In this document: in pieces, positions 5,381-28,022 of the stretch | Layout: every line of letters starts with the position of its first letter | Numbering within the stretch: position 1 is the first letter of the stretch | NCBI GenBank assembly: GCA_012729315.1 | Contig: JAAYDI010000112.1 | Span: forward strand, 1 to 64,000 | Length of the DNA stretch: 64,000 nt | Reading direction: 5' to 3' | Source: Planctomycetaceae bacterium | GTDB taxonomy: Bacteria; Planctomycetota; Planctomycetia; Pirellulales; Pirellulaceae | The notes under the pieces: model-generated | Told to the model about the DNA's origin: nothing | What the model saw: the letters and a program-made list of their open reading frames with translations, nothing else | Database searches by the model: none | Program-made: the position numbers and the translations under genes

Positions 5381-5889
5381 AACTCTCCCGGGCCCCCCCG
5401 ATCGCTCTCCCGAGCCCCACGTCACCGCAAGCGTCCCACGTGCGGTCGGTCCCGCGACGACGACCTCTCAGCAACGGCCTGACTGCGCCGTAAGTCGCTC
5501 CGTGAAGAACAGTTGGGATCAGAGGTAGAATCTCGCCGGAGCGGGGTCTACACGGTTGACGCGGTGTCGATCAGACGGGCTGCGCTCATCGTGCCACGCG
5601 GGGCAACGCGTTATCTGCGAACGACTTCCTACGACTCTTGAGAAGTCGCATTTTCGTTGCAATAGGTTTGGCCGTAATTACAATCCAACTTATGTGGCGT
5701 GCATGACGCGACAGAATTGCCTGATTTTCCTATAGCACCCAGTTGATGCTGCTGGCGTGTGGCAGTTTTGGTCTTTGCTCGCAGCCGTCGTGGGCCGGCT
5801 CCGGGTGCGGTGGGCGTTCATAAGCGGGTTTGTCGCCTCCAGTTGCTCTCTGAGAGAATTCGCACTGTCGTTTGTTGAGGGGTTGGTAT
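5381..5889. other. Intergenic region upstream of the giant surface protein gene
   Basis: About 510 bp without a supported gene. It is less GC-rich in its second half and contains the candidate promoter at 5657-5684, leaving an inferred untranslated leader of about 200 nt. No hairpin terminator for the GGDEF gene is obvious. Confidence 0.6.
5657..5684 (+). promoter_or_regulatory. Candidate sigma-70-type promoter for the giant surface protein gene
   Basis: TTGCAA at 5657-5662 and TACAAT at 5679-5684 are separated by 16 bp. The -10 hexamer matches the consensus in five of six positions. The site lies in a locally AT-rich patch about 205 bp before the start codon. It was recognised by eye only. 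Confidence 0.4.
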
Positions 5890-8800
5890 ATGGCCATCCG
5901 GCGTTCGCACAAGTTGTGGAAGTCAAGGAAGTTCCGTCGCAGTTCGAGCTTGCGGGCTCTTCGCCGCTCGGAGCGTGGTTTGCGGATCGAGACCCTTGAG
6001 GACCGCCGGCTGTTGGCGCTAGGGCCGCAGCTGATCGGAGTGCTGCCCAATGCCGGGTCGCTGCTTGTGGAGGGGGACATCCGCAACGTGGCGCCACAGG
6101 AGCTGCTGTTCAAGTTCGACGAGAGCCAGGTGTTTACCGACGACCCGGCAACGCTGCAGAGGGCGTTTCAGATCACGCGTGCCGGCGGGGACGGCGTGTT
6201 CGGGGACGTGGTGGACGGGATCGGCGACGACGTGGTGGTGACGCCCGGGTATGTGGGGCTGGTGACCGGCACGACGAACCAGCTTGTGTTGCGGTTCCAG
6301 GACCGGTTGGTGGACGATCACTATCGTCTGGTGGTCAAGGGGACGGGGGTCGATGCGCTGCGCAACGCGGACGGCATGGCGCTGAACGATCTGACGGACG
6401 ACAATGTAGACAACGGTGCGGACTATCGTCTGAACTTCGAACTGGATCTTGGTGCGCAGATTGTGGCGGTGGTTCCGCAGCCGATCCATCGCAACGCGAA
6501 TGGTACGCTGTCGCAGGACCGCAACAAGATCGTCGTGTACTTCAACGACGACGATCTGTTTGTCCAGAACGGCCCGGGGGGAGCCCCTACGGCCGCTTCG
6601 GCCGAGAATCCGGCTTTCTATCAGTTGATTCTGACGCGCGATACGGTCAGCAATCAGGACGACGTGAAGTTCAATCCGACGAAGGTGCAGTATGACCCGG
6701 TCACCGACCGGGCGGTGCTGACGTTTGGCCAGGCGGCGAGCCTGGAGGGGCTGGCCGGGCCCGGCACGTTCCGGCTGCGGATCGGGACCGACGAGTCGAT
6801 CCCGGCGGTGCCGGTGGAAGTGACGTTGACGCGCGAGCCGGGATCGAGTTTTGACACGGCGATTGACCTGTCGTCCGACTTCAACACCGATCATGCCAGC
6901 AGCGTGATCGTATCCCAGAAGATCGTGTCGACCGACTATCTGCTGGACTTCCCCGGTGCGGTGGATGAGCCGGGCAATCGTTCGATTCCGGTGCAGGGGC
7001 CGTACTATCCCTATCACGACGTGTGGGCCATGACGCTCTACGACGCCGACCTGCTGGGCAAGGACCCGCTGGGTGAAGGGATCACCACGGCCTATTACAA
7101 CTTCCAGACCTTCTACGGATTCGACCCGGAAGGGAACGCGCTGCGCAACCAGATCACGGAGAGTCAGAAGCAGCGGGCGCGTGAGATCTTCGAACTCTAT
7201 GGTGAGTACCTGGGGATCGACTTTGTCGAGACGGCCGCGCTGGGGATGACGATCGTCACGGGGGACCTGCGGGCGATCGAGCCGACGGTCGACACGCAGA
7301 CGGTGATTGGTTTGGCGGAGCCGAAAGACCTGGAAGGCCGCGCGATCATCAACGCGGGTGTGAACTGGAGTGATCGGTACGGGGACACCTGGTTCCAGGC
7401 CGCCATGCACGAAATCGGTCGGCTGCTGGGGCTCCATCTGACCGACGAGCTGCCGCCGATCACGATCATGAACGGCGAGGCGATCCTCAATTTCGACAAC
7501 GTGCCAGAACCGGACTTCCCGGGCCAGCATGACATCGTGCACGGCCAGCACCTGTTCCGCCCGGAGAACAAGGACATCGACCTGTACCGGTTCGAACTGC
7601 AGACGAGCGGCCTGTTCGTTGCTGAAACGCATGCCGAGCGGTTGCCCACCTCCAGCCTGCTCGACACGCACATCCGGGTCTACAAGCAGACGCTCACCGG
7701 CATCGAGGAAATTGCGCAGAACGACAACTATTTCAGCAAGGACTCCTATGTGTCCCTGTCGCTCGACGCGGGGGTCTACTTCGTTGGCGTCAGCGCCAGT
7801 GGCAATGACGACTATGATCCCGAGATCGAGGATTCCGGCATCGGCGGGACGAGCGAGGGAGACTATCAGTTGCGGCTGAGTTTCCGCCCCGGCGCCACGC
7901 GCAGTATCACGGACCAGGACAATCGGTCCCTGGGCGCGACACGGCTCGATGGCGATCTGGACGGGATCGCGGGGGGCGTGTACGACTTCTGGTTCCGCGC
8001 CGCGGCGCCCAAGGGCGAAGCCGCGCCCGGCCAGCCGCGGACGATCTATGTGGACAAGAGCGCGAACGTCGGAGTGGGAACGCTGCAGGCTCCCTACGGC
8101 AACCTGGCCTATGCCACCGCCAACGCCTTGCCGGGGGACATCATCCGGGTGGTCGGCAACGGGGGACTGGACAAAGACATCACGACGGTGGCGGACAATC
8201 GGGCGTATGAGATCGGTTTCGGCAACCTGCCCAACAACATCCTGTCCGACGGTGCCGAACTGGTCGTGCCCAAACTCGTCACGCTGATGATCGACGCGGG
8301 GGCCATTTTCAAGTTGAAGGATTCGCGGATCGGGGTTGGCAGTCCGAGCCTGTCGAAGGATCTGTCGGCCGGTGCGATCCAGGTGCTGGGTACGCCCGAT
8401 CTGAGCGTCATCTTCACCTCGTTCCAGGACCAGGAGACGGGGATCGACACGGATCCGCTCGTGACCACCCCGGCCGCCGGCGACTGGGGAGGCATTGTCA
8501 TCCGCAACGACCTGGATCGTGCTGAGAACCGCTTCCTGTGGGACGAGCACGGCATCTTCCTGGACTATATCAATCACGCCGACATCCGTTACGGCGGCGG
8601 CAATGTGAAAGTGGACGGTGTTCAGCAGATCGTCAATCCGATCACTCTGAGTGAAGCGGCGCCGACAATCTCGTTCAACCAGATCACCAAGAGCGCGGAC
8701 GCGGCGATCTCGGCCGACCCCAACAGCTTCCTGGAGTGGAACTATCACAGTCCGCGGTACCAGGGGGATGCCCCCTTCACGATTGACTACACGCGCGTCG

Positions 8801-11800
8801 GGCCCGACATCGATTTCAACAGGATCGTCGAGAACACGACCAACGGGTTGTTCATCCGCGTGACGACGCCGGCGGGCACCGCGACCAAACCACAGACGGT
8901 GACGGCCCGCTGGGACGACACCGATATCGTCCACGTGCTGGCTCAGACCCTGTTCATTCAGGGCACCCCTGGTGGTCCGATCCTGGAGGAGTCCCTGCCG
9001 CCGTCGGAATTGATCAGCTTGACCAGCCTGCCGGGCGGGAATCTCGCCGCCGGCCTCTACAACTACAAGCTCGTGTGGGTGGATGCCAACGGCAACGAGA
9101 GCCTTGCTTCCATCCCCACTCGGACGCTGCAGGTGGACGACGGCAGTCGGATCCAGCTGACGCAGTTGCCGCCGGCCCCCACGGGATTCATCGCCCGCCG
9201 GCTGTATCGCAGCGAGAGCAACGGGCTGCCGACCGGCGAGTACCGCCTGGTGGCGCAGCTCAACACGTCGTCCATCACCTACACGGATGTCGGCAACCCG
9301 GGAGGGATTCTGCTGGATCAGAGCGGCGCGGCGGCGAACCTGCGGCGGGCACGGCTGGATGCCAGCCTGGTGATCGATCCCAACATCATCGTCAAGCTGG
9401 TCGGGGCCCGAATTGAAGTCGGCATGGGCGCCCAACTGGTCGCCGAGGGACGCGATGGGCAACAGGTCATCTTCACCTCGAAGATGGACGACGAGTTTGG
9501 TGCGGGAGGCACCTTTGACACGGGGAACGACGGCGCTGCCGTGGCAGCGGCCCCGGGCAACTGGGGGGGCATCTTCGTGAGCCCGACGGGCAGTGCGAGC
9601 ATTGACTACGCGCTGTTCACGTTCGGCGGAGGAGAGGTGCCGGTCGAGGGTTCGTTCGCCGGATTCAACGTGCTGGAAGTGCACCAGGCGGATGTCCGCG
9701 TGACCCGCAGCATCTTCGAGAAGAACGATGACGGCGTGGGGGGACAGGCCCCATCGCACCGGTTTGGCCGCGGTTTCAACGACACCGGCACCATCTTCAT
9801 CCGCGGGGCGCAGCCGGTCATCGTCGACAATATCATTCGCGACAATCTGGGGGCCGTCGTCAACGTGAACGTCAATGCCCTCGATCATTCGCTGGTCAGC
9901 GACCCCGGACGCTCCACCGGCCTGCTGGATCGGGCAACGGAAGTGCGCGATAACCAGGGTCCGCTGGTAAAGTTGAACCAGCTCGAGAACAACGGCATCA
10001 ACGGCATGATCGTGCGCGGCGAGACGCTCACCACCCAGAGCGTCTGGGACGACACGGACATCACGCACGTCGTCTTGGACACGATCTACATCTCCGACTT
10101 CCATACCTATGGCGGACTGCGGCTCGAGAGCAATGCCACCGAGAGTCTGGTCGTCAAGCTGTTCGGGCCCACGGCCGGGTTCACCGCGACCGGGCGGCCG
10201 CTGGACATCGACGACCGGATCGGCGGCATCATCCAGGTAATCGGCCAGCCGGGCTCGCCGGTGGTCTTCACGTCGCTGCGCGACGACACCACGGGAGCCG
10301 GGTTCCGCGTGTCGGACGGCATGCCGCAGACCGACACGAACAACGACGGCAGCGCCACGCTGCCGGGACCAGGCGACTGGCGCAGCATCCTGATCGACCA
10401 GTACGCGCACGACCGCAACGTTGACGTGTACGTGGAATCCGAGGCGGCCAACGTCGTCGCGCCGGGCTCCAACGCCACCACCAGCCAGGCCGAGATCCTG
10501 GGGGCCCTGGCGTCGAGCGAGAAGAACGGCGACGAGAACCTGCGGCTGGGCTTCGAGGTCCACGGGTTGCTCAACGACCGCAATGACATCGACGTGTACA
10601 GTTTCCAGGCCCGCGCCGGGACGGAGATCTGGATCGACTTCGACCGGACCCGGCATTCGCTCGACACCGTCGTCGAACTGATCGGTTCCGACGGCCAGCT
10701 GATCGCCCGGTCGGACAATTCGTTCCAGGAGTCGAACCGCGCGGAATCGATCGTGAAGGCCAACCCCTCGATCGACGCCAACGTGCTGCAGAAGTCCCCC
10801 TACCTCCAGGGGCGTGATACCTACACGACCAACCCGCGCGATGCGGGCATGCGCGTCGTGCTGCCCGGTGCCGTGGGGAGCGCGTTGACATCGTTCTACA
10901 TCCGCGTCCGCAGCAGCAGCGACAACCTGGCCGACTTGAACGCCGGCCAGACGATGGGGCGGTACCAGTTCCAGGTGCGGCTGCGGGAAATCGATGAGGT
11001 GCCCGGTTGCACCATCCGCTACGCCGACATCCGCTACGGCACGTACGGCATTGAGGTCTACGGCCAGCCGATCCACTCGCCGCTGCTGGGTGAGGCCAGC
11101 GAGGCCAACAATTCGGCCAACGATGTGATCGCCAACGCGCAGGCATTGGGCAACATCCTCAACACGGATCGCGCGGCGCTGAGCATCGCGGGCGAGCTGA
11201 CGGCCGCCTCCGATGTGGACTTCTACCGCTTCGATATCAACTACGACTCCGTGCAGGGGTCCGGGATCGTCAATCCCTTCCTGTACCTGTCGACGATCTT
11301 CGACGTGGACTATTCCGATCAGCTGGGGCGCTCGGATGCATCCCTGGCCGTGTTTGACCGCAACTTCAACCTGATCCTGTCGTCCAGCGGGGTTCGCGGA
11401 CGGGATAACTCGAACATCGCCGAGGACCAGCCGGCACCGCTCAACGGCGCCGACATGGACGACACGTCGCGCGGGTCGGCCGGCACGCTCGATCCCTTCA
11501 TCGGCGCGCAGTCATTGCCCGAGGGCACCTACTACCTGGCGGTCACCAACAGCAGTCGGATGCCCAACGAACTGAGCCAGTTCACGCAGGCCAATCCGGC
11601 CAACCCGCTGGTCCGGCTCGAACCGATCAACTCGATCAGGCGGATCGCCGAAGAACGGGTGGAGCAGACCGGGGGCTCGAACATCGCCGGCTCGCCGACG
11701 GTCGACCTGCTGGACGACATCAGCATCGTGCCGTTCACGCTCGGGGACGTGACGCTGTTTGTGGCCACGTATCCGGGTGAGCAGCCCACCTACGGGGCGA

Positions 11801-14800
11801 AGATCCATACCGTGGACCCGTTCACCGGCGCGCTGGAAACGACGCTCGGTGATATTTCCGTGGGGGGCAGCTTGCCGTACATCGGCGATATCGCCATGCG
11901 GTACGACGGCCAGATGTTCTCGTTCTCGCAGTCGTACTTCGCTCAGCTCGGCACCGACGGGACCGTCGGGAACTTCCTGCATATCGACACCGGCACGGCT
12001 GCCGCCACCAACCTGGGCGACGATGGTCTGCTGACCTACGTCCCCAATCCGAACGGCCAGGGATCTGTGCGGGCGGGGGGTGGCCAAGGTGTCGGCGTGT
12101 TCTTCAACGCCATCACCTTCGCCGGTAACGGCCAGTACGATCTGTTTGCGGTGGGGGACCGGGGCGATGCCGGGTGGGGGCTGGTCACGCGGGAAACCAA
12201 TATCCTGTACCAGTTCGACGCGAACACCGGCGTCGGGAACAGCATGTACTCGCCCGGCAGCGACCGGACCGGCTGCCCGCCGGGCGGCAACGAGTGCCAG
12301 CACAACGGCGCCGGCACCCAGATTCGCGAACGCGGACAGATCATCACGACCGGGTCGACCATCACCACTGCCGACGCCACCGATCTGACGGGCCCGTTTG
12401 ACGCGTCGATCAGCATCCAGGATGGCGCTGGGTTCCAGATCGACTCCGAGAGCTTCGAGTTCGACACCGGACCGGAAGTCATGGTACTCATCGACCCAGC
12501 GACGGGCCGGGTGATCCGCGACGGCGACTTCATGATCCTCGACGGCGACTTCTTCCAGTTCGATACCGGGTCCACGCTGGTCATCCCGGCGGATACCGAG
12601 GACTATGCGGCCGGTGCGACGATCCCCGACGGCCTGGTGCTCACCTTCTATGCCACCAGCGGCGCGATGGTGCGTCTGGAATTCGAGGACACCGATGTAG
12701 GGGATGGGCGGGAGACGTCCGGCTCGGTCCTGGTCAATTACGACGCCACCACGACGCAGGCTCAACTGCAGGAACGGGTGGTGAGCAGCCTGAACGCGGT
12801 CACCGTCTTCCCGGTGCGGGCGGCGGCGGTCGGGCCGGACCTGGTGTCGTTCACCCGCGATGCGCGGATCCACATGGACGGCCGGTTTCTGATCGACACC
12901 TCCAACACGATTCTGTCGACGCTGAGCCAGCCGGCGGTGGCGCTGGTGGCGGAAGAAACGATCCTGATCCCCAACAGCGGCTATGCCGACGCCGAAACGC
13001 TGACCATCAGTGACGGCAACAAGACGGTGCTGTTTGAGTTTGAAGATGTCAGCCTCGGCAATGGGCTGGTCAACATCGAGGCGGTGCCGATCAATTTCGA
13101 CGCGACATCCGACGGATTTGATATCTTCACGCAGCTGGTGGCCGGGATCCTGGCGAACGATCTGCGCGTCTCGCCGCAGGGCGTCGCCCTGCGCCCGTCG
13201 GAGGACGTCTGGGGGCTGCACCTCGAGACGTCGCTGAAGCTGTCGGGCGAAAGGGGGGATGCCCCGATTGTCGCCGTGATCAACGGTGCTCGGTTCAACG
13301 ACGGCGAGACCTTCGTCGTCGTGACCACCGACGGCAGGACCACCTTCGAGATCGATCTGGGTGACGGCGTGGCGGCCGGGAACGTGCAGTTCTCGGTCAC
13401 CTCCTTCGACACGGCGGTAGAGCTGGCGGAGCGGCTGGCCAGTTACGTCAATCAGTACACGGCTGCCGAGTCGCGGGCGGTGTACGAGACGGTCGACGAC
13501 GACGTGGCCTATGTGCTGGTCAATTCCCAGCAGATCCCGCTGGGACGCGCTACACCCGAAACCCCTCACATCTTGTTCCAGGAAGCCAGCGCCGGCCTGT
13601 CGCTGGTGCCGATCTTCGATTACCTGGCGAATCCGGACCATCCTACGTTCAGCGACATCGAAGGACTGCTCATGGGGTTCGAAGAAACCATGACGCAGGC
13701 GCAGTTCCAGCAGCAGCTGGCGAACGAACTGAACGTGCGGCGGACCATCACCAACGCATCGAACCCCGCGGGGGCGCCGATCGTCATCACGTCCGATAAC
13801 CACGGACTGCGCACGGGCCAGTCGGTCATGATCCGGGACATGGTGGGGGACCTGGTGCGGTTCATGCCGGGGCAGGTGTTCGCCAACGGCCTGTTCGATA
13901 TCACCGTGGTGAATGCCAACACTTTCTCGCTCAACGGCACGCAGTTCCGGAACTTCAGCGGCAACACGCTCTTCAACTATCAGGATGGCGGGGGGTATTT
14001 CATCAACTATGAAGCCAGCTCGATGGGCGCCCGGACGAACTTCCTCGGCGGTAATGTGGGGCGGTTCAAGGGCGTACCGATCTTCGTGGATCAAGGGACG
14101 CGCGGTGGAGTCAGTGCGGGGAACGTTCGCGTGCCGTTGCGGGCGGCCGACACGGCCAATCAAGTTGCGGCCGTGGTGGCCCAGCACATTAACCGCGAGC
14201 TGTTTCCGGAAGTTGTGGCCCGCGCCGGAACGGGCGTGGTCAACATCGTCAACGGCCAGGCGTTTGCCGACGCACCGCTGATCGCCAGCAACAGCGGAGC
14301 CGGTGGCCAGGTGACCGGCATCGCAATCGTGAACAACAACATGTACGCCGTGGACGATCGGGGCGGCCTGTACCAGATCCGAAACTACCGCAGTTCCAGC
14401 CTGTCCACGCAGTACATCACGAACATCGAGGGCATCGAGTTCGCCGGGCTGTCGGTCGGTCCGCAGCAGCTGCAGAACGGCGCCTACGCCGATCTGCTGT
14501 TCGGCATCAGCCGCAGCGGTCGCCTGTACGCCTTCGATACCCTTGGCCAGCTCCAGCCCATCTTCGTCGATGGGCAGACGAGCGTGCAGACGGGGGCGGT
14601 CGGCGAAGTGACGGGGATGGCTTTCTCGAACCTCGACAGGAACCTGTGGCACGTCACCAATAATCGCGCCAATGATCCGGGGCACGGCATCACGGTGCCG
14701 GTGGACGGCAGCCGTCTCGCGCGGAACGGCGGGAACAGCTACTATTTCGGGTTCCAGGACGTCAGTGCGAACGGTTGGACCAGCCTCGATCCAACCAATC

Positions 14801-17800
14801 GCAACAACTACAACTTCCCGGGAGGCGCTCACGGCAGCCTCGAGACGAATGCCTTCAGCCTTCAGGGGTATTCGGCCAGCGATGATCCGGTGTTGTACTT
14901 CAACTACTTCCTCCAGACGGAGAATGCGCTGTACAATCCCCAGCCGCTCGATCCGATGCGGGACGCGTTCCGCGTCTTCATCAGTGCGGACGGAGGCGAA
15001 TGGCAGCTGCTGGCGACCAACAACTCGTTCCGCAGCAATAGACTCTTGGACGACGAGTATGAGTTGGGCGAAGGCGCCATTCCCCAGATGGATCAGGTCA
15101 ACGGGCGGCGCGGCGTGCAGGAGCTCTTCGACAACACGAACAGCTGGCGGCAGGCACGCATCCAGTTGGCGCCGTGGGCCGGCATGGAGAACCTGAGGTT
15201 GCGATTCGACTTCTCCACGGCAGCCAGCCTGGATATCGGCGGTACGGCCGGGGTCGACATCTGCGGGGTGGCGGCCAGCAGGGTCCGCGACGGCGAAACG
15301 CTGGTAATCGATGACGGGGTCGTCTTCGAGTTTGATTTCGGCCACATCCTGGTGGCCCCCAGCGCGGCTGTCTTCACCGACGGCACACGTTTCGAAGCCT
15401 ACGGTACGCGGTTTGAATTCGATCCGCTGCTCGACGGTGTCACCGATGGCATCCCGATCATGTTGCTGCCAACCGACAGCGCGACGGCTGTGGCAGAGCG
15501 GATCGAACAGGCCTTGTTGGCTCGGTCGATCGACGTCGTCCGCGATGGAAACCGGCTCAACCTGCCGGCCCCCGGGGTAGTGGACGTGCTGGATTCGGCA
15601 CTGATCCATGAAGCGGAGCCGGGTGTCGACGGCACGAACATTCCGATGGTGGTGACGGTGTCGATGTCCTCCGACCAGGTGGCCGCTGTGGTCCGCAAGG
15701 CGCTGGAAGACCGGTTTGCCGGCGGCGATTTCGGGCCCGGTGAGGATGGCTTCCAGAATATCACCATGTACAAGGACCGCGTCCGCTTGGTCGGCCATTC
15801 CGTGACCGACGCGGGGCCGCTGAGCGTGATCGGCCAGCTGCAGGGCGACGAATTCGGCAGCTTCTATGCCTCCGGACCGCCGGCGCTGCCGGGACGCTTC
15901 GCCGGTTCGCTGCGCGGCATGAACAACAACTATGAGGGGGTCTATATCGACGACATCATCATCGGGTTCGCCGAGCGGGGTGAACTGGTTACGGGTGCCG
16001 TCGGAGATGCCAGTTTCGTGGCCAACCCGCAGGTGCCGGACTTCTCGGAACTGCAGGGGATGTACCAGGTGGAAGTCCGCCGCGGTCCGGAATACGGCTA
16101 CATGACCAGCAGTGCGGCGATGCCCTTCTGCATCCTCGAAGGGATGCCTCCGTTCGGCTGTGGCGGCCGCTCTTTCGACACCAACGACCGGCTGGGACAG
16201 CACATTTCCCTGGTGGCCCCCTCGGCCGACCAGTTACGGGATGGGCAGACGTTCCAGATCAGCGACGGGGTGAACACGGTGGTGTTCGAGTTCGAGGATC
16301 TGGACGTCGGTGACGGCGTGGCGAGCGGCAACCTGATGGTGCCGTTTGACGCGACGGCCTACGACCCGGTCACCGGCTCCTACGCGGCTGAGCCCGCGTA
16401 TGTCATCGCGCGCCGCATTCGCGACGCGATCAACAGCAGCCAGTCGCAGGTGATCATCGACATCGTGGCCGCGCTCGCGGACGGCGAGGTCGTGACGCCC
16501 GCGGCGCCGCCGCGCCCCAGTGTGTTCACGCCGCTCTACGCGGCCCCCAGCACGAGCAACGTCATCAATCTCTTCGGCAACGCCACCGGGGACGTGTTCC
16601 CGACGTTCGACTTCGGCGAGATTGAAGTGATTACCTACGGGTACTCGGAGGCGCTGGGCGTCGAGCATCAGATGGTCGGCGACAGCAATGTGTTCCGCGA
16701 TCAGGGGCAGATCCTGATCCATTCGAACATCGTGCGCGACTCGGCGCGGTTCGGCATCGTGGCCGATGCCGGCGACCGCAGTCGCAGCGACCTGGTGCCA
16801 GCCGCCGGTGTGCTCCCGCACGCCGGTCCTGCCGCGAACCTGCGCGTGCGGAACGCCGAACGCCTGACGCCGGGCGTGGTCATCATCAACAACGTGATTG
16901 CCAACAGCGGGGTGGGGGGCATCCTGTTCAGCGGCGATCCGGCCACCACCGGCGAACTGGGGAGCGTGCCCTTTGGACGCATCGTCAACAATACGATCCA
17001 CGGCAACGGCGGTGGCGTGGGGATCCAGGTATCGGAAAATGCCAGCCCGACGATCCTCAACACAATCGTATCGAACGTGGCCACCGGGATCAGCATCGAT
17101 GCCACGTCGACAACGACGGAAATGGGCGGTCTGCTGTTCCAGAACGTCGGGACACTGTCCACGACGGGGGTGATCGGCGCCTACGCGATCGTGCTCGGCC
17201 CGGACGACCCGCTGTTCGTCGATGCGGCGAACTACAACTTCCTGCCGGCGGCGGGCTCAAAGGCCATCGACAGCTCGATCGATTCGCTGGATGACCGGCA
17301 GAACTTGTTCTTCGTGAAGGATCCGCTGGGCATCTCCAAGTCCCCGATTCTGGCGCCGGCGCGCGACGTCTATGGCCAATTGCGGCAGGACGATCCCAAC
17401 GTCAACCCGCCAGCGGGCCAGGGCGAGAACGTGTACAAGGACCGCGGTGCCGTGGACCGGGTCGACTTCATCGGCCCCTATGCCCAGTTGATCAACCCGC
17501 GCGACAATGACGGAGAGGGGCATGACGCCAACCCGCGCGACACGATCGTGAACGTCGCGACGACACTCACGCACTTCAGCATCCAGCTGATAGACATGGC
17601 CGCTGGTGGCGGCGAAGGCACCGGCCCGAATGACGCCTCCGTGCTCGCTTCGACCGTGATGCTGCTCCGCGACGGCAGGACGCTGGTACGCGGCGTGGAC
17701 TACTCGTTTGCCTACGACACCACGAGTAACACGATCCGTCTGTCACCGATTGCCGGCATCTGGGAGCGGGATCGGCAGTATGAGATCAACCTGGTGAACG

Positions 17801-19557
17801 CCGAGCGCCAAGTCGTCAACTTCCTGACGTCCACGCCGGCCGACGAAGACTCGTTCACCATTGAGGATCTTGCCACGCCCACCGCCAACAGTGTCACGTT
17901 CGAGTTCGACACCGGATACGTCATCCTGGTACCGGCGACGGGTGGCACGGCGCTGGTGGACGGTGAGACGTTCCTGCTCAGTCATGGTGCGGTGACCAAG
18001 TCGTTTGAACTCGATTCCAACGGCCAGGTCGCCACCGGCCGCGTGCGTGTCCCGTTCACGGAGACGTCCACCCAGGACGAAGTAGCCAATGCGCTGGTCC
18101 AGGCCATCCTGTCCAGCGGTATGTCTCTCGCGCCGCGGAACGCCGGCCAGGGACGCGTGCACATTGGCGGGAACGACAGCACGAATCTGGACACGTCGGC
18201 GACGACGCTCGACCAGACCGGCGAGCCCGGTACGCAGAACGAGGACGCCATCCCGATCGTGATTGCTCCGGGGCGCGGTGAAGACATCGCGCAGGCTGTC
18301 TCGGAGGCCATCGCTGCCGCGGTGGCGCAGGGCAAACTGGTGGGGGTCACCAGCGAGGCCTTCGGCGCCTACCTGTTCCTGGACGGCATGGACAGCGTGA
18401 CCGGACTGACCGTCGACACACTGACGTCGATCCACGATCTGGCTGGCAACGACCTGCGGCCGAATCGGCCGGACGGTACCACACGCTTCACCATCCTGAC
18501 CGGTCTGGGCACGGACTACGGCGATGCGCCGGCCGTGTACCCGGTCCTCCGCGAAAACAACGGGGCCGGGCACCGCATCGTGCCAGGATTCCACCTGGGC
18601 GCGTTCGTAGACGCGGAACCGGACGGTCAGCCGTCGGCGCTGGCCAGTGCCGATTTGAGTGATGACGGCGTGGTGTTCGCCGGTCCCATGACGGCCGGTC
18701 AGAACGCGGTCATGAACGTGGTCGCGTCGGCGCCCGGGTTCCTGGACGTGTGGTTCGACGCCAACGGTGACGGCGACTGGAACGACGTTGGGGAGAAGAT
18801 TTTCTCCAGCCACCGCCTCGCGGCTGGCAGCAACACGCTGACATTCAAGGTCGTTGCGACCGCCGTGAATGTGCCGACGTTCATGCGGTTCCGGTTCAGC
18901 AGTACTGGTGGCCTGGCACCGACCGGCATCGCGGAAGACGGCGAGGTGGAAGACTATGTCGTGACCGTCTCGGCCAACCCGTGGCAGAACCACGGTCTGG
19001 CGCGGGACGTCAACGGCGACGGCTACATCTCGCCGCTCGACGCGCTGCTCATCATCAACCTGCTGAACTTCAACCCAGGAATATCGCAGCAGCCGCTGCC
19101 GGTGCCGCCGCTGCCCGAATTCACGCCACCGCCGTATTACGACGTCAACGGTGACGGTTACGTCTCGCCGATCGACGCGCTGCTGATCATCAACTACCTC
19201 AATGGCGAGGGAGAAGGTGAAGGCGAAGTAGCGGGCGATCTGCTGGCCGCCGCTGACGACGCCGTCGCGCTGGTGGAGATCGGGCTCAACACAGGCCTGT
19301 CAGGCGGCCAGCTGCTGGTGAGCTCGGCCACCAGTACCGCCCCGGCCGCTCCGGCGATCGATGCGGCTGCCGCGCAGCCTGAGACCGGTTACCCGGACTC
19401 TGGCACCTTGCCGGCGGAGCTGCCACGGGAGCGGGGTCTGACCGATCTGCAGGCCGCGGATCTGGAGGACCTGCTCGAGGATCTGGCCGGGGAAGCAGCT
19501 GATCTGGTCAGCCTGGCCGACGCCCACGATTCCGTCTTCGCCCGGCTGGGCGCGTGA
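5890..19557 (+). CDS. Giant (4,555-aa) LEPR-xLL/dockerin surface protein with a broken matrixin-like motif
   Basis: A very large, probably exported multidomain protein. Its basic N-terminus carries the LEPR-xLL-type motif IETLEDRRLLAL (about residues 34-45). Then come Ig-like strands; a matrixin-like region with HEIGRLLGLH (H507), in which the second HEXXH histidine is arginine; several pre-peptidase C-terminal-like (PPC) sandwiches (about 557-667, 1517-1700 and 1733-1890); right-handed beta-helix segments with NWGGI repeats (about 717-970, 1150-1500 and 3600-3790); propeller-like stretches; at least seven copies of a DGxTFxI...FEFD module; a GEVED domain ending EDGEVEDYVVTV (about 4211-4360); and two dockerin repeats DVNGDGYISPLDALLIINLL and DVNGDGYVSPIDALLIINYL (about 4370-4440). 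An acidic GEGEGE linker and a Leu-rich tail ending DSVFARLGA close the protein. The ATG at 5890 is preferred over TTG 5872 because GAGGGG lies 7 nt upstream. Adhesin or matrix role inferred. Confidence 0.9.
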   Translation: MAIRRSHKLWKSRKFRRSSSLRALRRSERGLRIETLEDRRLLALGPQLIGVLPNAGSLLVEGDIRNVAPQELLFKFDESQVFTDDPATLQRAFQITRAGGDGVFGDVVDGIGDDVVVTPGYVGLVTGTTNQLVLRFQDRLVDDHYRLVVKGTGVDALRNADGMALNDLTDDNVDNGADYRLNFELDLGAQIVAVVPQPIHRNANGTLSQDRNKIVVYFNDDDLFVQNGPGGAPTAASAENPAFYQLILTRDTVSNQDDVKFNPTKVQYDPVTDRAVLTFGQAASLEGLAGPGTFRLRIGTDESIPAVPVEVTLTREPGSSFDTAIDLSSDFNTDHASSVIVSQKIVSTDYLLDFPGAVDEPGNRSIPVQGPYYPYHDVWAMTLYDADLLGKDPLGEGITTAYYNFQTFYGFDPEGNALRNQITESQKQRAREIFELYGEYLGIDFVETAALGMTIVTGDLRAIEPTVDTQTVIGLAEPKDLEGRAIINAGVNWSDRYGDTWFQAAMHEIGRLLGLHLTDELPPITIMNGEAILNFDNVPEPDFPGQHDIVHGQHLFRPENKDIDLYRFELQTSGLFVAETHAERLPTSSLLDTHIRVYKQTLTGIEEIAQNDNYFSKDSYVSLSLDAGVYFVGVSASGNDDYDPEIEDSGIGGTSEGDYQLRLSFRPGATRSITDQDNRSLGATRLDGDLDGIAGGVYDFWFRAAAPKGEAAPGQPRTIYVDKSANVGVGTLQAPYGNLAYATANALPGDIIRVVGNGGLDKDITTVADNRAYEIGFGNLPNNILSDGAELVVPKLVTLMIDAGAIFKLKDSRIGVGSPSLSKDLSAGAIQVLGTPDLSVIFTSFQDQETGIDTDPLVTTPAAGDWGGIVIRNDLDRAENRFLWDEHGIFLDYINHADIRYGGGNVKVDGVQQIVNPITLSEAAPTISFNQITKSADAAISADPNSFLEWNYHSPRYQGDAPFTIDYTRVGPDIDFNRIVENTTNGLFIRVTTPAGTATKPQTVTARWDDTDIVHVLAQTLFIQGTPGGPILEESLPPSELISLTSLPGGNLAAGLYNYKLVWVDANGNESLASIPTRTLQVDDGSRIQLTQLPPAPTGFIARRLYRSESNGLPTGEYRLVAQLNTSSITYTDVGNPGGILLDQSGAAANLRRARLDASLVIDPNIIVKLVGARIEVGMGAQLVAEGRDGQQVIFTSKMDDEFGAGGTFDTGNDGAAVAAAPGNWGGIFVSPTGSASIDYALFTFGGGEVPVEGSFAGFNVLEVHQADVRVTRSIFEKNDDGVGGQAPSHRFGRGFNDTGTIFIRGAQPVIVDNIIRDNLGAVVNVNVNALDHSLVSDPGRSTGLLDRATEVRDNQGPLVKLNQLENNGINGMIVRGETLTTQSVWDDTDITHVVLDTIYISDFHTYGGLRLESNATESLVVKLFGPTAGFTATGRPLDIDDRIGGIIQVIGQPGSPVVFTSLRDDTTGAGFRVSDGMPQTDTNNDGSATLPGPGDWRSILIDQYAHDRNVDVYVESEAANVVAPGSNATTSQAEILGALASSEKNGDENLRLGFEVHGLLNDRNDIDVYSFQARAGTEIWIDFDRTRHSLDTVVELIGSDGQLIARSDNSFQESNRAESIVKANPSIDANVLQKSPYLQGRDTYTTNPRDAGMRVVLPGAVGSALTSFYIRVRSSSDNLADLNAGQTMGRYQFQVRLREIDEVPGCTIRYADIRYGTYGIEVYGQPIHSPLLGEASEANNSANDVIANAQALGNILNTDRAALSIAGELTAASDVDFYRFDINYDSVQGSGIVNPFLYLSTIFDVDYSDQLGRSDASLAVFDRNFNLILSSSGVRGRDNSNIAEDQPAPLNGADMDDTSRGSAGTLDPFIGAQSLPEGTYYLAVTNSSRMPNELSQFTQANPANPLVRLEPINSIRRIAEERVEQTGGSNIAGSPTVDLLDDISIVPFTLGDVTLFVATYPGEQPTYGAKIHTVDPFTGALETTLGDISVGGSLPYIGDIAMRYDGQMFSFSQSYFAQLGTDGTVGNFLHIDTGTAAATNLGDDGLLTYVPNPNGQGSVRAGGGQGVGVFFNAITFAGNGQYDLFAVGDRGDAGWGLVTRETNILYQFDANTGVGNSMYSPGSDRTGCPPGGNECQHNGAGTQIRERGQIITTGSTITTADATDLTGPFDASISIQDGAGFQIDSESFEFDTGPEVMVLIDPATGRVIRDGDFMILDGDFFQFDTGSTLVIPADTEDYAAGATIPDGLVLTFYATSGAMVRLEFEDTDVGDGRETSGSVLVNYDATTTQAQLQERVVSSLNAVTVFPVRAAAVGPDLVSFTRDARIHMDGRFLIDTSNTILSTLSQPAVALVAEETILIPNSGYADAETLTISDGNKTVLFEFEDVSLGNGLVNIEAVPINFDATSDGFDIFTQLVAGILANDLRVSPQGVALRPSEDVWGLHLETSLKLSGERGDAPIVAVINGARFNDGETFVVVTTDGRTTFEIDLGDGVAAGNVQFSVTSFDTAVELAERLASYVNQYTAAESRAVYETVDDDVAYVLVNSQQIPLGRATPETPHILFQEASAGLSLVPIFDYLANPDHPTFSDIEGLLMGFEETMTQAQFQQQLANELNVRRTITNASNPAGAPIVITSDNHGLRTGQSVMIRDMVGDLVRFMPGQVFANGLFDITVVNANTFSLNGTQFRNFSGNTLFNYQDGGGYFINYEASSMGARTNFLGGNVGRFKGVPIFVDQGTRGGVSAGNVRVPLRAADTANQVAAVVAQHINRELFPEVVARAGTGVVNIVNGQAFADAPLIASNSGAGGQVTGIAIVNNNMYAVDDRGGLYQIRNYRSSSLSTQYITNIEGIEFAGLSVGPQQLQNGAYADLLFGISRSGRLYAFDTLGQLQPIFVDGQTSVQTGAVGEVTGMAFSNLDRNLWHVTNNRANDPGHGITVPVDGSRLARNGGNSYYFGFQDVSANGWTSLDPTNRNNYNFPGGAHGSLETNAFSLQGYSASDDPVLYFNYFLQTENALYNPQPLDPMRDAFRVFISADGGEWQLLATNNSFRSNRLLDDEYELGEGAIPQMDQVNGRRGVQELFDNTNSWRQARIQLAPWAGMENLRLRFDFSTAASLDIGGTAGVDICGVAASRVRDGETLVIDDGVVFEFDFGHILVAPSAAVFTDGTRFEAYGTRFEFDPLLDGVTDGIPIMLLPTDSATAVAERIEQALLARSIDVVRDGNRLNLPAPGVVDVLDSALIHEAEPGVDGTNIPMVVTVSMSSDQVAAVVRKALEDRFAGGDFGPGEDGFQNITMYKDRVRLVGHSVTDAGPLSVIGQLQGDEFGSFYASGPPALPGRFAGSLRGMNNNYEGVYIDDIIIGFAERGELVTGAVGDASFVANPQVPDFSELQGMYQVEVRRGPEYGYMTSSAAMPFCILEGMPPFGCGGRSFDTNDRLGQHISLVAPSADQLRDGQTFQISDGVNTVVFEFEDLDVGDGVASGNLMVPFDATAYDPVTGSYAAEPAYVIARRIRDAINSSQSQVIIDIVAALADGEVVTPAAPPRPSVFTPLYAAPSTSNVINLFGNATGDVFPTFDFGEIEVITYGYSEALGVEHQMVGDSNVFRDQGQILIHSNIVRDSARFGIVADAGDRSRSDLVPAAGVLPHAGPAANLRVRNAERLTPGVVIINNVIANSGVGGILFSGDPATTGELGSVPFGRIVNNTIHGNGGGVGIQVSENASPTILNTIVSNVATGISIDATSTTTEMGGLLFQNVGTLSTTGVIGAYAIVLGPDDPLFVDAANYNFLPAAGSKAIDSSIDSLDDRQNLFFVKDPLGISKSPILAPARDVYGQLRQDDPNVNPPAGQGENVYKDRGAVDRVDFIGPYAQLINPRDNDGEGHDANPRDTIVNVATTLTHFSIQLIDMAAGGGEGTGPNDASVLASTVMLLRDGRTLVRGVDYSFAYDTTSNTIRLSPIAGIWERDRQYEINLVNAERQVVNFLTSTPADEDSFTIEDLATPTANSVTFEFDTGYVILVPATGGTALVDGETFLLSHGAVTKSFELDSNGQVATGRVRVPFTETSTQDEVANALVQAILSSGMSLAPRNAGQGRVHIGGNDSTNLDTSATTLDQTGEPGTQNEDAIPIVIAPGRGEDIAQAVSEAIAAAVAQGKLVGVTSEAFGAYLFLDGMDSVTGLTVDTLTSIHDLAGNDLRPNRPDGTTRFTILTGLGTDYGDAPAVYPVLRENNGAGHRIVPGFHLGAFVDAEPDGQPSALASADLSDDGVVFAGPMTAGQNAVMNVVASAPGFLDVWFDANGDGDWNDVGEKIFSSHRLAAGSNTLTFKVVATAVNVPTFMRFRFSSTGGLAPTGIAEDGEVEDYVVTVSANPWQNHGLARDVNGDGYISPLDALLIINLLNFNPGISQQPLPVPPLPEFTPPPYYDVNGDGYVSPIDALLIINYLNGEGEGEGEVAGDLLAAADDAVALVEIGLNTGLSGGQLLVSSATSTAPAAPAIDAAAAQPETGYPDSGTLPAELPRERGLTDLQAADLEDLLEDLAGEAADLVSLADAHDSVFARLGA
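12397..18180 (+). repeat. Region encoding at least seven copies of a DGxTFxI...FEFD protein module
   Basis: Within the giant gene the pattern DG-x-[TF]-F-x-[IL]-x-[DG] followed by FEF[DE], a valine-rich strand (GNLMVPFDAT, GRVRVPFTET) and a short Ala/Ile helix recurs near 12410, 12510, 12960, 13290, 15290, 16230 and 17840. Copies are diverged at DNA level, so this is an old protein repeat rather than a recent tandem duplication. Beta-propeller-like and beta-helix-like segments interrupt the series. Confidence 0.6.
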
Positions 19558-19779: not shown

Positions 19780-22533
19780 ATGCGTGTACGGTCCAGTGAG
19801 CCGGGACATTGGCAGCCGCAACGGCGGCCGCAGCACCGCCGCGGCGCCAGCCGCGCGGTACGATTCGAACGACTCGAGCCACGCATGTTGCTGGCCAGCC
19901 TGCCGTTTGGCGCCGCCGGTGCGGACACGGCGGAGTACATGCTGGGCAATGTGGTGGCCACCGTCGTGTTCCTCGAATCCGATGGCAGCATCGACCCCAG
20001 CACGCAGGACTGGAACCCGCTCGTGCGGGACCAGTACGGCGAACCGGTGCTGGACGCGTTCGGCAATACGATCAGCGCCAGCGGCCCGAACTGGATCGAA
20101 CTCACAAAGGACCGCGTCGAGGAGGGGCTCCAGTGGTGGGAAGATGCGCTGGTCAACTTCTACGCGGAGCACTACGACGGTATCGATCCCATCCACGCGC
20201 TGAACTTCATCTGCGATTTCGAGTACGCGCACAACCCGGTGCCGACCGGCTACGAGCCGATCGACCGGATCTCCAATGACTACGCGTTATGGGTGCCGGA
20301 ATTCCTCCGCAATGTCGGCTACGACACCACCGGCGTGCTCGAGACCGACATCCGCGCGTTCAACCAGTCGCAGCGTCTGAAGCACGGAGCCGACTGGGCC
20401 TTCACGATCTTTGTCGTCAACGACTACAACGATGCCGACGGCCGGTTCAAGGCGGGGGGCAGTTTCTCGCAGGCGTTCGCCTTCTCCGGTGGACGTTTCT
20501 TCGTCGCGCCGTCGCGGCGGCCGGCCAGCACGTTCGCGCACGAGACCGGACACATCTTCTACGCGCTCGACGAATACACCGGGGCCGGCACCTACACCGG
20601 CCGCCGCGGATACTACAACACTCAGAACTTGAATGCCTGGGACAACCCGGACCCGGACTACGTCTTCCAGCCCAGCATCATGTATGCGGGCGAAGCGCTG
20701 AACACCGCGTGGCAGAACCATACCAGCTCCATGTCGTCACTGGCGATGATCGGCTGGCAGGACTCGGATGCCAACGGGGTCTTCGACGTGCTGGACGTGC
20801 CCCTGACGTTGACCGGGGCCGGCCGCTACGACCCAGTGGCTCAGGCCTATCGGTTCTCCGGGCATTCCGCCGTACAGACGCTGCCCAACTTCAACTCCTC
20901 CGGCCGCCGCAACGACATTACGATCAACCGCGTCAGCCAGGCGGTTTATTCGCTCGACGGCGGCGTCACGTGGACGGTGGCCCAGGACTACAACCTGTAC
21001 GAGACGGACATCAGCCTGTCTATTCCCATGCAATTGGGCCAGGAGATCCTGATCCGGACCCAGGCGGTGGATCCCTGGACGGGGCAGACGGTGGTGGTGT
21101 CGGAGGACGTGTTCTGGGGTACGACCGCCTTCCCCACCGCAGTGGCGCCGTCAGGTGTGCAGGGTTACGTCTGGTATGACCTGGATGCCGACGGTGTCTG
21201 GGACGTCACGGAACGCGGCATCCCCGGCTGGACGCTGCAGGTGGTCGACGAGTCCGGCCAGGCGGTCGCGATTCGCCAGACCCTGGAACCCGACCACTAT
21301 CCCCAGTACACGCTGCTCAATGGTGTGCTCAATGACGTAACCCTCGCCGCGACGGGATATGATGTCAAGGATGCACGCGTTGGGAGCGTGGCAGCGTCCG
21401 GTTCCCAGCTGTTCGGTGCAGTCCGCTATGGTGTGGCCGACGAATGGGTGACGGAGTGGACGTTTGAAAGCCGCAACCTGCGCATCGATCTGGACAGCCC
21501 GACTACGACGATCAGCCTGGATGCGGTGGGGCCGGCGACGGGGGGCTACGGGCGTCTGGAAGTCTATGACCAGGCCGGCGGACTCCTGGGAAGGTACACG
21601 ACGAAGTACCTGGCAGCGGGTGCTGTCGAGACCATGACCTGGAATACACCGACGCCGCAGATTGCCTACGCCATCGTGAAGTCCACATACGACTCCGTGA
21701 TTCAACTCGACAATCTGCGGGTCGGCGCGGCCACGGCGGCAACGACCGATGCATCGGGTGCCTATGCTCTGCCGCATCTGCCCCCGGGGGCATATCGGGT
21801 ACTGGCCATACCGCCAAGCGATTGGGAAGTGGCCGATCCGCTATCCGGAATCCGCGACGTGGTGGTCGATGCGCAGGGAACCATGGTGTGGGCTGCCGAC
21901 ACCGAACGGCCCAGCGATTTCGCCGGTCGAGTCAGCCCGTCAGCCCCGCCGTGGCGCAATCCGCTCGATCCGCTCGACGTGAACAATGACGGCCTGCTCA
22001 CCCCGATCGATGCGTTGTTGGTCATCAACGAGTTGAACCGTGTCGGTGGGCATGCCCTGTTGCCGCCGTCCGGCGATGCTGCCCCGCCCCCCTACCTGGA
22101 CACCACGGGGGACAACTTCGTCTCGCCAGTCGATGCGTTGCGGGTCATCAACGAGCTGAACCGGCGCGGCAGCGGCGGCTCCGGTGAACCCTCTGCCAGC
22201 GGTGCCAGCGGTGCCAGCGGTGTTGACGGCGGAGGCAAGACCGGGGGCGGCGAAGGCGAAGCGGGGTGGCCGGCACGTGACCATGAGTCCCTGCTGCGCG
22301 ACGTCGGCCAGCGCCGGGTGCCAGGGGAAGCCAGCGCCCCGGACACGGCCGATCCAGTCGGCGGCGATCTGCACCCGGCCGGACTCCTCCAACTGCGGCA
22401 CCAGGACGAGCTTCTCACGCTGCTCGCCCAGGACGTCACACAGGCACGTCGCAAGCTGGCCGACCTGGTGGCGGATGCCGTGACCGACGTGATGCACGCC
22501 GTGATCGACGACTGGCTGCCCGGTCTTCCCTAA
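19780..22533 (+). CDS. LEPR-xLL/dockerin protein with a HETGH zinc-metalloprotease domain
   Basis: A 917-residue, probably exported protein. A basic N-terminus leads into FERLEPRMLLAS (about 29-40). Residues about 100-330 form a putative metalloprotease: HETGHIFYALDEY (H254, E255, H258) supplies the HEXXH motif, and the following DEY resembles the peptidase M64 pattern, where an acidic residue closes the zinc site; the spacing is one residue shorter than the M64 form I remember. Residues from about 460 form an SdrD_B-like domain (GVQGYVWYDLDADGVWDVTE) that is interrupted by a roughly 130-residue sandwich-like insert before resuming at TDASGAYALPHLPPGAYRVL. Two dockerin repeats follow (DVNNDGLLTPIDALLVINEL and DTTGDNFVSPVDALRVINEL), then Gly/Ser tandem repeats and a Leu-rich tail containing LLTLLAQDV. 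It sits 222 bp after the giant gene, same strand. Confidence 0.85.
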   Translation: MRVRSSEPGHWQPQRRPQHRRGASRAVRFERLEPRMLLASLPFGAAGADTAEYMLGNVVATVVFLESDGSIDPSTQDWNPLVRDQYGEPVLDAFGNTISASGPNWIELTKDRVEEGLQWWEDALVNFYAEHYDGIDPIHALNFICDFEYAHNPVPTGYEPIDRISNDYALWVPEFLRNVGYDTTGVLETDIRAFNQSQRLKHGADWAFTIFVVNDYNDADGRFKAGGSFSQAFAFSGGRFFVAPSRRPASTFAHETGHIFYALDEYTGAGTYTGRRGYYNTQNLNAWDNPDPDYVFQPSIMYAGEALNTAWQNHTSSMSSLAMIGWQDSDANGVFDVLDVPLTLTGAGRYDPVAQAYRFSGHSAVQTLPNFNSSGRRNDITINRVSQAVYSLDGGVTWTVAQDYNLYETDISLSIPMQLGQEILIRTQAVDPWTGQTVVVSEDVFWGTTAFPTAVAPSGVQGYVWYDLDADGVWDVTERGIPGWTLQVVDESGQAVAIRQTLEPDHYPQYTLLNGVLNDVTLAATGYDVKDARVGSVAASGSQLFGAVRYGVADEWVTEWTFESRNLRIDLDSPTTTISLDAVGPATGGYGRLEVYDQAGGLLGRYTTKYLAAGAVETMTWNTPTPQIAYAIVKSTYDSVIQLDNLRVGAATAATTDASGAYALPHLPPGAYRVLAIPPSDWEVADPLSGIRDVVVDAQGTMVWAADTERPSDFAGRVSPSAPPWRNPLDPLDVNNDGLLTPIDALLVINELNRVGGHALLPPSGDAAPPPYLDTTGDNFVSPVDALRVINELNRRGSGGSGEPSASGASGASGVDGGGKTGGGEGEAGWPARDHESLLRDVGQRRVPGEASAPDTADPVGGDLHPAGLLQLRHQDELLTLLAQDVTQARRKLADLVADAVTDVMHAVIDDWLPGLP

Positions 22534-22706
22534 GCGTTGCCGGCGGATTCTGCTCGCCCCCTTCCGCGCCATCGTCTACAATATCCGGCGTGCTCAAGGC
22601 CGGATTGGCGACGCGTCCCGCGCCTCCCTGTGCGCGAGCGGAGCGGGCCGGTGCCGCGCGTTCTGGCACAGTGTCCATCGGGGGCGTGTGGGACGAGGGG
22701 GGGAAG

Positions 22707-25280: not shown

Positions 25281-25287
25281 TCTCGCA

Positions 25288-25377
25288 CCTGCGTCAGGAG
25301 GATGAGCGCCAAGTAGCAACGCGAAACGCGGGCAGGTCAACAACGCTCCGACGCGGCGCTCATCCTCCTGACGCAGG
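25288..25377. repeat. Perfect 23-bp inverted repeat with a 44-nt loop
   Basis: Bases 25288-25310 (beginning CCTGCGTCAGGAGG) are exactly complementary to 25355-25377, with no mismatch. The structure starts 7 nt after the stop codon of the surface protein gene and is followed by AAAAATC rather than a T-tract, so it is not a textbook terminator for that gene. It could be a readthrough-blocking hairpin, a mobile repeat or a processing site. Confidence 0.85.
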
Positions 25378-25502
25378 AAAAATCTCCGAAATTCTTGATG
25401 GCTGGCGATGCTCGTTTGCGATTCCCCGTTCGAGCGGTCGCGAACGTCAGCAGGATAATCACCAAAATGCGGCAGCACCCCTCACGGATTTTCTGGAATT
25501 TG

Positions 25503-25531
25503 TTGCGAGTCGGGAGCGCCCTTGGTATACA
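25503..25531 (+). promoter_or_regulatory. Candidate promoter for the sigma-kinase-CHAT operon
   Basis: TTGCGA at 25503-25508 and TATACA at 25526-25531 are exactly 17 bp apart, and the predicted start would be about 45 nt before the sigma factor ATG. The pattern is sigma-70-like. If the operon is autoregulated by its own ECF sigma factor, a different motif should exist, and I could not identify one. Confidence 0.45.
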
Positions 25532-25581
25532 AGCAAAGGCGACTTCGGCCCGCACCATGATTGCTGGCAGGAATTGAGCGC

Positions 25582-28019: not shown

Positions 28020-28022
28020 CGC

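Follow-up and report, generated by a model that had tools for sequence, protein, structure and literature searches.

A sheath-like plug-in domain that appears to nest within itself in giant proteins of planctomycetes

The usual view of large proteins is that they are extended like beads on a string. Recursive insertion has been described for Si3 of RpoC2, the beta' subunit of the cyanobacterial RNA polymerase, in which HABAS domains of the same family are inserted into one another to give a six-level arrangement (PMC13114784, PMC11515920). Planctomycetes are a phylum known for giant genes, and most of these have been suggested to encode surface proteins (PMC5177795). One such giant gene lies at 5872..19557 on the forward strand of the stretch considered here (the window, i.e., the whole 64,000 nucleotides analysed), which comes from a Planctomycetaceae bacterium (assembly GCA_012729315.1, contig JAAYDI010000112.1, positions 1 to 64,000). 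The open reading frame (ORF) has 4561 codons counted from a TTG and 4555 counted from an in-frame ATG at codon 7, the latter agreeing with the 4,555 residues reported in a first-pass annotation made from the sequence alone. Its product ends in GEVED and dockerin domains, which together with PPC score above cut-off in a Pfam scan, and it carries diverged copies of a module of about 100 residues. The best overall explanation, and a probable one, is that this module is a plug-in domain, inserted both in the loops of host domains and in itself, that may decorate the giant protein. The nesting itself, namely the insertion of units within units of their own family, can be stated with still greater confidence.

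The likeness to RpoC2 Si3 lies in the insertion of domains of one family into each other. Si3 differs in belonging to another protein, in having what is there named the hybrid motif fold and in residing inside the cell, whereas the giant proteins have several sites per protein, with copy number and depth varying between genomes. The HABAS or hybrid-motif fold was not among the matches listed for either of the two structural models described below, which excludes nothing. Same-family recursive nesting is already known, with RpoC2 Si3 as the one precedent found; what is new here is the fold, the protein, the multiplicity of sites and the variation in depth. Among the papers listed by searches of the open-access literature, none describes nesting in planctomycetes.

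The unit, its fold and its possible role

An iterated hidden Markov model (HMM) search seeded from a single copy (amino acids (aa) 3450-3540) recovers exactly seven places in the giant protein: aa 2248-2321, 2369-2438, 2472-2544, 2733-2786, 3165-3228, 3452-3538 and 4025-4089. An independent HMM of 189 rows, from which the window and its sister genome were left out, retrieves all seven at 18-89 bits, with expect values (E) in order of 1.1e-10, 2.7e-14, 1.5e-13, 1.2e-8, 1.3e-7, 2.3e-18 and 8.9e-30, as against a best domain of 4.7 bits (E 0.0021) across 200 residue shuffles of the protein. The earlier claim of at least seven diverged copies is thus borne out, with the fourth of them (aa 2744-2794) consisting of the C-terminal half of the unit only. 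The independent HMM also reports extra half-copies at aa 3249-3284 (2.7e-5), 3990-4016 (1.4e-4), 4125-4166 (0.004), 2181-2203 (0.038), 2603-2648 (0.059) and 2212-2233 (0.79), of which only the first two exceed the best shuffle on their own; an unrelated stretch, aa 178-229, also scores at the level of the weak half-copies (E 0.38). The extent first assigned to the module, 12397-18180 (aa 2176-4103), fits these results, with the last half-copy ending about 210 bases further on. The module had been credited with a large part of the protein; the four stretches bearing it sum to 1184 of 4561 aa, i.e., 26%.

The unit alignment rests on 201 hits in 22 ORFs from 20 stretches, i.e., those of 19 relatives' genomes and the window. 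The full unit spans about 97 positions, with a hairpin (DGeTFtisDG..vtFEFD), a loop, a strand (vpIpf), a helix (tadeiAaaIvaaIn), further strands and a closing L...G.pG; as a fold it would comprise a two-stranded hairpin, a third strand, the helix, two or more strands and an L-x-x-x-G-x-P-G motif. Its strongest columns, D6, F21 and E22 (alignment A3), are structural. A named repeat family was sought in Pfam, NCBIfam and PHROGs, and none of these gave anything over cut-off for the module. The first-pass annotation had connected the module to no named repeat, and no Pfam or NCBIfam model names it in the giant protein and the window copies have no profile library match above cut-off. The low matches that remain are scattered and mostly due to chance; they comprise 47 and 52 Pfam families (E <= 1; sets of 54 and 61 members) and 14 PHROGs (E <= 0.1), one of the latter a tail sheath at 0.022.

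A region comprising one complete copy (aa 3984-4190) was modelled with AlphaFold2 at a predicted local distance difference test score (pLDDT) of 92.2 and a predicted template modelling score (pTM) of 0.83. In VIA-align comparisons, the inner unit of this model (model residues ~31-137) aligns with the tail sheath of phage PhiTE at Z 10.3 over 85 residues and 2.1 A, followed by other sheaths at Z 8.5-9.7, a T7-type nozzle at 7.5, FliD at 7.2 and FliC at 7.0; since values of Z < 8 may reflect only a common arrangement, the sheath match is the one relied on. The likeness is specifically to the exterior domain of the sheaths, with PhiTE 9cba/9cb9 (residues 87-177), Sf14 9c3b and A-1(L) 8kee at Z 10.3, 9.6 and 9.4 and 84-88 residues aligned at 2.1-2.2 A. 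In sheaths, such additional domains lie off the tube, carried by a core that both chain ends form, and their outside position is thought to serve stabilisation or adhesion (PMC9230969). Foldseek against viral models gives eight matches at E <= 0.001 (best 1e-7), the named ones including baseplate J-like and tail sheath proteins. There are also differences: identity to the sheaths is 11-20%, profile matches to them are not significant (E 0.1-3.8), and no sheath family, i.e., none with the conserved sheath core, appears in the Pfam scan of the giant protein at E <= 10. Two structural results count against the assignment, in that Foldseek found no match in the PDB at E <= 0.001 (best 0.1) and the FliD and FliC values (Z 7.0-7.5) lie where unrelated folds also score. 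A direct profile link to solved structures was also tried and proved weak, with de novo designed proteins ranking level with sheaths and flagellins among the matches listed.

The flagellar connection is more distant. The head domain of FliD is common to FlgK and FliC (PMC5072837), and among PDB sequences the unit profile matches flagellin 4nx9 best (E 0.012). PF07196, the flagellin hook IN motif, is the Pfam family matched by the most members (4 of 54, best 1.7e-4; 3 of 61 in the second set), and hhalign places strand 3, the helix and the next strands of the unit in register with it, at a probability of 22-28 and E ~1e-3, as against 0.2 for controls. In relatives, the giant ORF of G012 (6365 aa) matches PF07196 at 23.8 bits and that of G011 (6121 aa) at 22.5 and 22.9 with neighbours, the cut-off being 22.7 bits; both ORFs hold units, of which the PF07196-matched stretch may be one. 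Unlike the IN motif, the unit has an extra N-terminal hairpin, and the window copies lie under any firm threshold, PF07196 not being listed for the giant protein at E <= 10. Nor is the giant protein flagellar as flagellin, hook and cap proteins are, the same scan giving no flagellin domain at E <= 10. The sequence link to the IN motif is suggestive only. Going by the model, the fold would be of a kind borne as exterior decoration by tail sheaths and tail tubes and, more distantly, by flagellin and FliD. The module had initially been read as an unconnected repeat, and its copies are indeed real, diverged and unnamed; the fold, however, is not new, given its similarity to the sheath exterior domain. 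A confident fold was obtained in one modelled region (aa 3865-4214), and that the seven copies share a fold rests on their homology. Neither the profile-library searches nor the modelling overturned the first-pass reading of the module.

With its ends together and insertion tolerated in its own loops, the module would be suited to thicken a scaffold at constant length. By analogy with the sheath domains, its function might be a structural decoration that thickens or roughens a secreted or surface-exposed giant protein, a tentative proposal whose chances are put a little short of even. That the module instead binds a ligand or acts as an enzyme is an unlikely alternative, albeit the foremost of those considered: the model can be aligned with a domain of the chitin- or cell-binding proteins GbpA and CbpD, but at low Z values (4.5 and 5.7), the strongest columns of the unit are the structural ones named above, and no catalytic signature was seen, no further search having been made for one.

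Insertion into host loops and into the unit itself

Alignment of the relatives' ORFs by the flanks of their arrays defines four conserved sites, S1-S4, of which three (S1, S2 and S4) are empty in some relatives. At S1 the gap is 12 aa in one of 16 ORFs, and at S2 it is -9 and 18 aa in two of 21. S4 is bounded by "YEINLVN" on one side and "DLAGN...TTRFTI" on the other, both belonging to an immunoglobulin (Ig)-like domain. In the training ORFs, the right flank was detected for 17 of 20 left flanks, with two sites empty (L052, gap 1 aa; L053, gap 4 aa) and 15 filled by 207-806 aa. A second survey, which included the window and whose genomes were partly those of the first, had 51 left flanks, 45 of them with both flanks, giving three empty sites (4, 13 and 18 aa) and 42 filled ones (205-974 aa). 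The window's own genome holds a second giant ORF of 4601 aa (L144; G000:C130), in which S4 is empty (gap 4) and one unit is detected elsewhere.

The S4 host is the best case of an insertion into a conserved domain. The AlphaFold model of aa 3865-4214 (pLDDT 90.1, pTM 0.80) resembles a Big_5/CopC-like Ig domain: CopC 2c9r aligns over 94 of its 97 residues (Z 9.4, 2.1 A; model 4-347) and 6nfs over 95 of 97 (Z 9.1; to 348), each on both sides of the insert, with the S-layer protein SbsC 2ra1 at Z 8.6 and the matches spanning model residues ~3-348. The tail sheath domain aligns in between, at residues 151-254 (Z 10.9). The host differs from a CopC-like Ig domain in carrying about 205 residues between its last strands, and in the model it appears to close across them. 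No Pfam Ig model matched the S4 host region, and a Pfam search of the S2 and S3 hosts gave no family.

The partial copies can be read as the two pieces of split units. With full units masked, 26 N-terminal (N) and 45 C-terminal (C) halves were surveyed; most N-halves stop at unit positions 26-32 and most C-halves begin at 24-31, and both kinds have a second group of splits near positions 39-45. At S4, the sequence ahead of the first full unit (the lead) and that behind the last one (the tail) were cut by position in 15 ORFs; against a profile lacking the S4 units, the leads correspond to unit columns 1-29 (hhalign probability 96.7, E 3.8e-10) and the tails to columns 30-80 (96.3, E 1.6e-9). 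Leads and tails at S1 (7 ORFs) match the unit at 93.8 and 96.7, respectively, and at S2 (6 ORFs) the N-half matches unit columns 1-32 at 96.6 and the C-half columns 26-77 at 94.1, whereas control comparisons of leads and tails with the Ig and jelly-roll flanks reach 1.1 or less. As leads and tails match complementary columns of the unit, a lead and its tail would make up one split unit that encloses the units between them. S4 inserts have a length of 87 + 118 n for n inner units (r 0.993; 33 of 42 filled sites), from which it follows that the outer halves contribute about one unit. At the sequence level, the order is A1-B1-C-B2-A2, with units interrupted by units of the same family.

If an N-half is taken as an opening and a C-half as a closing bracket, the halves can be scored for balance against 2000 shuffles. 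The training ORFs give 44 of 44 possible matches (shuffled 27.0, standard deviation (sd) 3.2; 0/2000), and 33 ORFs of genomes outside the HMM give 58 of 60 (shuffled 38.7, sd 3.7; 0/2000). An N-half comes first and a C-half last in 32 of the 33 training clusters that have both kinds and in 31 of 35 clusters in other genomes. A plain tandem array, in which complete units stand beside decayed or partly duplicated halves, each a remnant or an independent small repeat, is improbable in view of this polarity, which decay would not predict, and of the complementary columns (1-32 and 26-80) of leads and tails at three sites. It would sit well with the preponderance of complete and adjacent units—among 148 neighbouring token pairs, 73 are full-full (FF), followed by FC 30, NF 22, CF 8, CC 6, NN 4, FN 3, CN 2 and NC 0—and with the many half-units that have no partner within their cluster. 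The complete lack of an N-half directly followed by a C-half speaks against it, partly by construction, because close neighbours are scored as one unit.

What tells nesting apart from every other order is the matching of split points, which fall near 29/30 in some units and near 40/42 in others. In a set of 109 deduplicated ORFs, complementarity to within 5 positions is seen for 71 of 103 bracket pairs (median offset 0, r 0.50), as against 50.1 (sd 4.3) with permuted partners, where none of 5000 permutations reaches the observed number. Where a cluster has at least two pairs (14 clusters), 42 of 57 pairs are complementary if matched last-in-first-out and 23 of 57 if matched first-in-first-out; at E <= 0.05, the figures are 27 of 41 and 10 of 41. 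Some multi-pair clusters hold successive rather than nested pairs, and there both pairing orders agree; others are orthologous nests, and the counts do not represent independent events. The split-point matching already disfavours the tandem array. As to depth, L130 parses as (((((U))))(UUUU)UU), with a depth of six under the loose cut-off and of four under the strict one, L128 has five levels at both cut-offs, and L051 and L043 have five at E <= 0.01. L061 (PBSM01000166.1) and L064 (JACNKX010000149.1) are further deep nests.

A series of observations weighs against nesting and loop insertion. Half-unit hits are weak by nature, and four of the window's half-units do not exceed the best shuffle on their own. 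Under stricter cut-offs, the bracket matches in the training ORFs fall to 28/31 (E <= 0.01, 1/2000) and 16/18 (E <= 1e-4, 12/2000), and those in the other genomes to 39/42 at E <= 0.01 (0/2000). In the latter genomes, 4 of 35 clusters end in an N-half, and many halves lack a partner in their cluster (79 N, 88 C, 58 matched). The clusters are not independent, with L051/L128 and L061/L064 looking like one nest in related genomes, and 32 of the 103 bracket pairs are not complementary within 5 positions. At S4, lead and tail together average 123 aa (109-156), i.e., more than the 97-position unit, and the 33 sites of the length regression were hand-picked for a clean parse, with nine odd parses excluded and the n = 5 point exerting leverage. 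S3 is never empty, with at least one unit in 19 of 19 ORFs, so that insertion there is putative; S1 of L041 and L044 holds 111 and 119 aa with no detected unit; and a lone, unnested unit was seen at none of the S4 sites.

Even with these points counted, nesting within the family remains very likely. In the mechanism proposed, the module would act as a plug-in for loops of conserved host domains, the Ig-like domain at S4 being the best case, and would also enter its own loops, either the one joining strands 2 and 3 (unit ~29/30) or the one leading from strand 3 to the helix (~40/42). The outer unit would thereby be cut, its N-half standing before and its C-half after the enclosed units, and the step might be repeated to five or six levels. 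The two halves of the outer unit would then pair within one chain of the folded protein, and copy number and depth would be free to vary. Pairing of halves between neighbouring units or molecules, i.e., domain swapping, would make the nesting a feature of gene order rather than of the fold. It has a parallel in the recursively inserted HABAS domains of RNA polymerase, which partly exchange secondary-structure elements (PMC11515920), but is slightly less probable than even the tandem array, the S4 model being confident as a single chain and its Ig-like host closing across the insert in that model. An assembly artefact or chimeric reading frames can practically be dismissed: many of the genomes are drafts of hundreds of contigs, but each array occupies one open frame, without internal stops at the matches listed, and this holds for the one-contig genomes G007, G012, G029 and G052 as well.

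The module would then be no simple repeat, for its copies are inserted in loops and the partial ones are split halves. A more general formulation, favoured with some reserve, is that the arrays obey a context-free balanced-bracket rule with two fixed self-insertion loops and no hard limit at the depth seen, with a branched domain tree in each host loop; deep nesting of one domain in itself would then be known from two cases, this one being the first outside the cell. Judging by their sequences, these giant proteins appear to grow through nesting as well as by the addition of beads to a string, and, if the bracket rule is true, giant planctomycete proteins would form a family of evolving branched, tree-like proteins. 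Closely related members differ in the depth of self-nesting at fixed sites, and as empty and intermediate states are available in living species, the evolution and folding of nested domains become directly testable. A fold and a rule are thereby proposed for a stretch of these proteins that no domain library names, linking them to the exterior domains of phage tails and perhaps to flagella.

The nests of the window, their neighbours and their spread

In the window, the parse suggested by the sequence is ((UUU)) at S1, (U) at S2, U at S3 and (U) at S4, i.e., ten unit-equivalents with four of them split; some of the halves are weak. Three of the halves reach significance alone, namely the S2 C-half, the S4 N-half and, strongly, the S1 outer C-half; the others need the relatives. 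All coordinates are on the plus strand. The S1 left flank (12136..12348, aa 2089-2159), which looks beta-propeller-like from its sequence, is followed by two putative outer N-halves: hairpin 1 (12412..12480, aa 2181-2203; weak alone, E 0.038) and hairpin 2 (12505..12600, aa 2212-2243; not significant alone, E 0.79). Taken with five relatives, the two match unit columns 3-29 at probabilities of 96.1 and 94.5, respectively, with an Ig control reaching 9.5 for hairpin 1. They precede unit A (12613..12876, aa 2248-2335; E 1.1e-10), unit B (12979..13182, aa 2370-2437; E 2.7e-14) and unit C (13285..13500, aa 2472-2543; E 1.5e-13). After these come a possible outer C-half (13678..13815, aa 2603-2648; weak, E 0.059) and the outer C-half that had first been counted as the fourth copy (14101..14253, aa 2744-2794, unit positions 26-77; E 1.2e-8), ahead of the right flank (14266..14463, aa 2799-2864). 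Between the two C-halves sits a sub-threshold E1_FCCH-like stretch (13786..13956; PF16190 E 0.0045, 17.5 bits, cut-off 29.5), another domain inserted in the nest.

The S2 left flank (14899..15240, aa 3010-3123) looks jelly-roll-like, again from sequence. Its outer N-half (15277..15342, aa 3136-3157) reaches E 1e-6 with an N-half HMM and is fused with unit E (15367..15624, aa 3166-3251) in the independent-HMM scan; the outer C-half (15625..15807, aa 3252-3312; E 2.7e-5 for aa 3249-3284) and the right flank (15808..15996, aa 3313-3375, ...VYIDDIIIGFAERGE) follow. S3 holds unit F (16231..16485, aa 3454-3538; E 2.3e-18), where no half-units were seen. At S4, the first part of the Ig-like host (17464..17808, aa 3865-3979) leads to the outer N-half (17839..17919, aa 3990-4016; E 1.4e-4), then to unit G (17944..18231, aa 4025-4120; E 8.9e-30), which is the most canonical copy and the inner unit of the model, then to the outer C-half (18244..18390, aa 4125-4173; E 0.004) and to the last strand of the host (18430..18507, aa 4187-4212, DLAGN..TTRFTI).

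A search with a single copy from the window gives matches in 28 of 60 related genomes (E <= 0.01), the open frames concerned measuring 1075-9456 aa. Across the phylum, alignment A3 finds the module in at least 30 of 392 genomes at E <= 1e-5, from several families, a lower bound given that 13 candidates per genome were scored. The S4 Ig-like host domain occurs in 180 of the 241 genomes of the family. A search of named contigs, for which the unit consensus was used since alignment A1 is too diverged, returned 11 loci. Ten carry names of the Planctomycetota type (Pirellulaceae, Planctomycetaceae, Rhodopirellula and others), which suggests Pirellulaceae as the family of the window. The eleventh (L065, JAJCZB010000071.1), from a metagenome-assembled genome labelled Candidatus Dependentiae, has weak unit-like stretches in a 1034-aa frame, which may reflect transfer or misbinning. 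In four loci of distant planctomycete genomes (L136-L139), frames of 961-1821 aa carry one unnested unit each, by eye inside an Ig-like domain; such single units are possibly the ancestral state.

Opposite the giant gene lie minus-strand frames at 6019-11076 (1685 aa) and 11512-16203 (1563 aa), probably shadows of its codon composition. Three further dockerin proteins adjoin it within 19780-36686, one with SdrD_B (19780-22533) and two with Big_9/cadherin-like repeats (22590-25280 and 32427-36686), and the same interval also encodes a protein kinase and a TPR-CHAT protein. Further along, 38514-40472 encodes a SecA-like protein of 652 aa (SecA_DEAD, E 4e-104).

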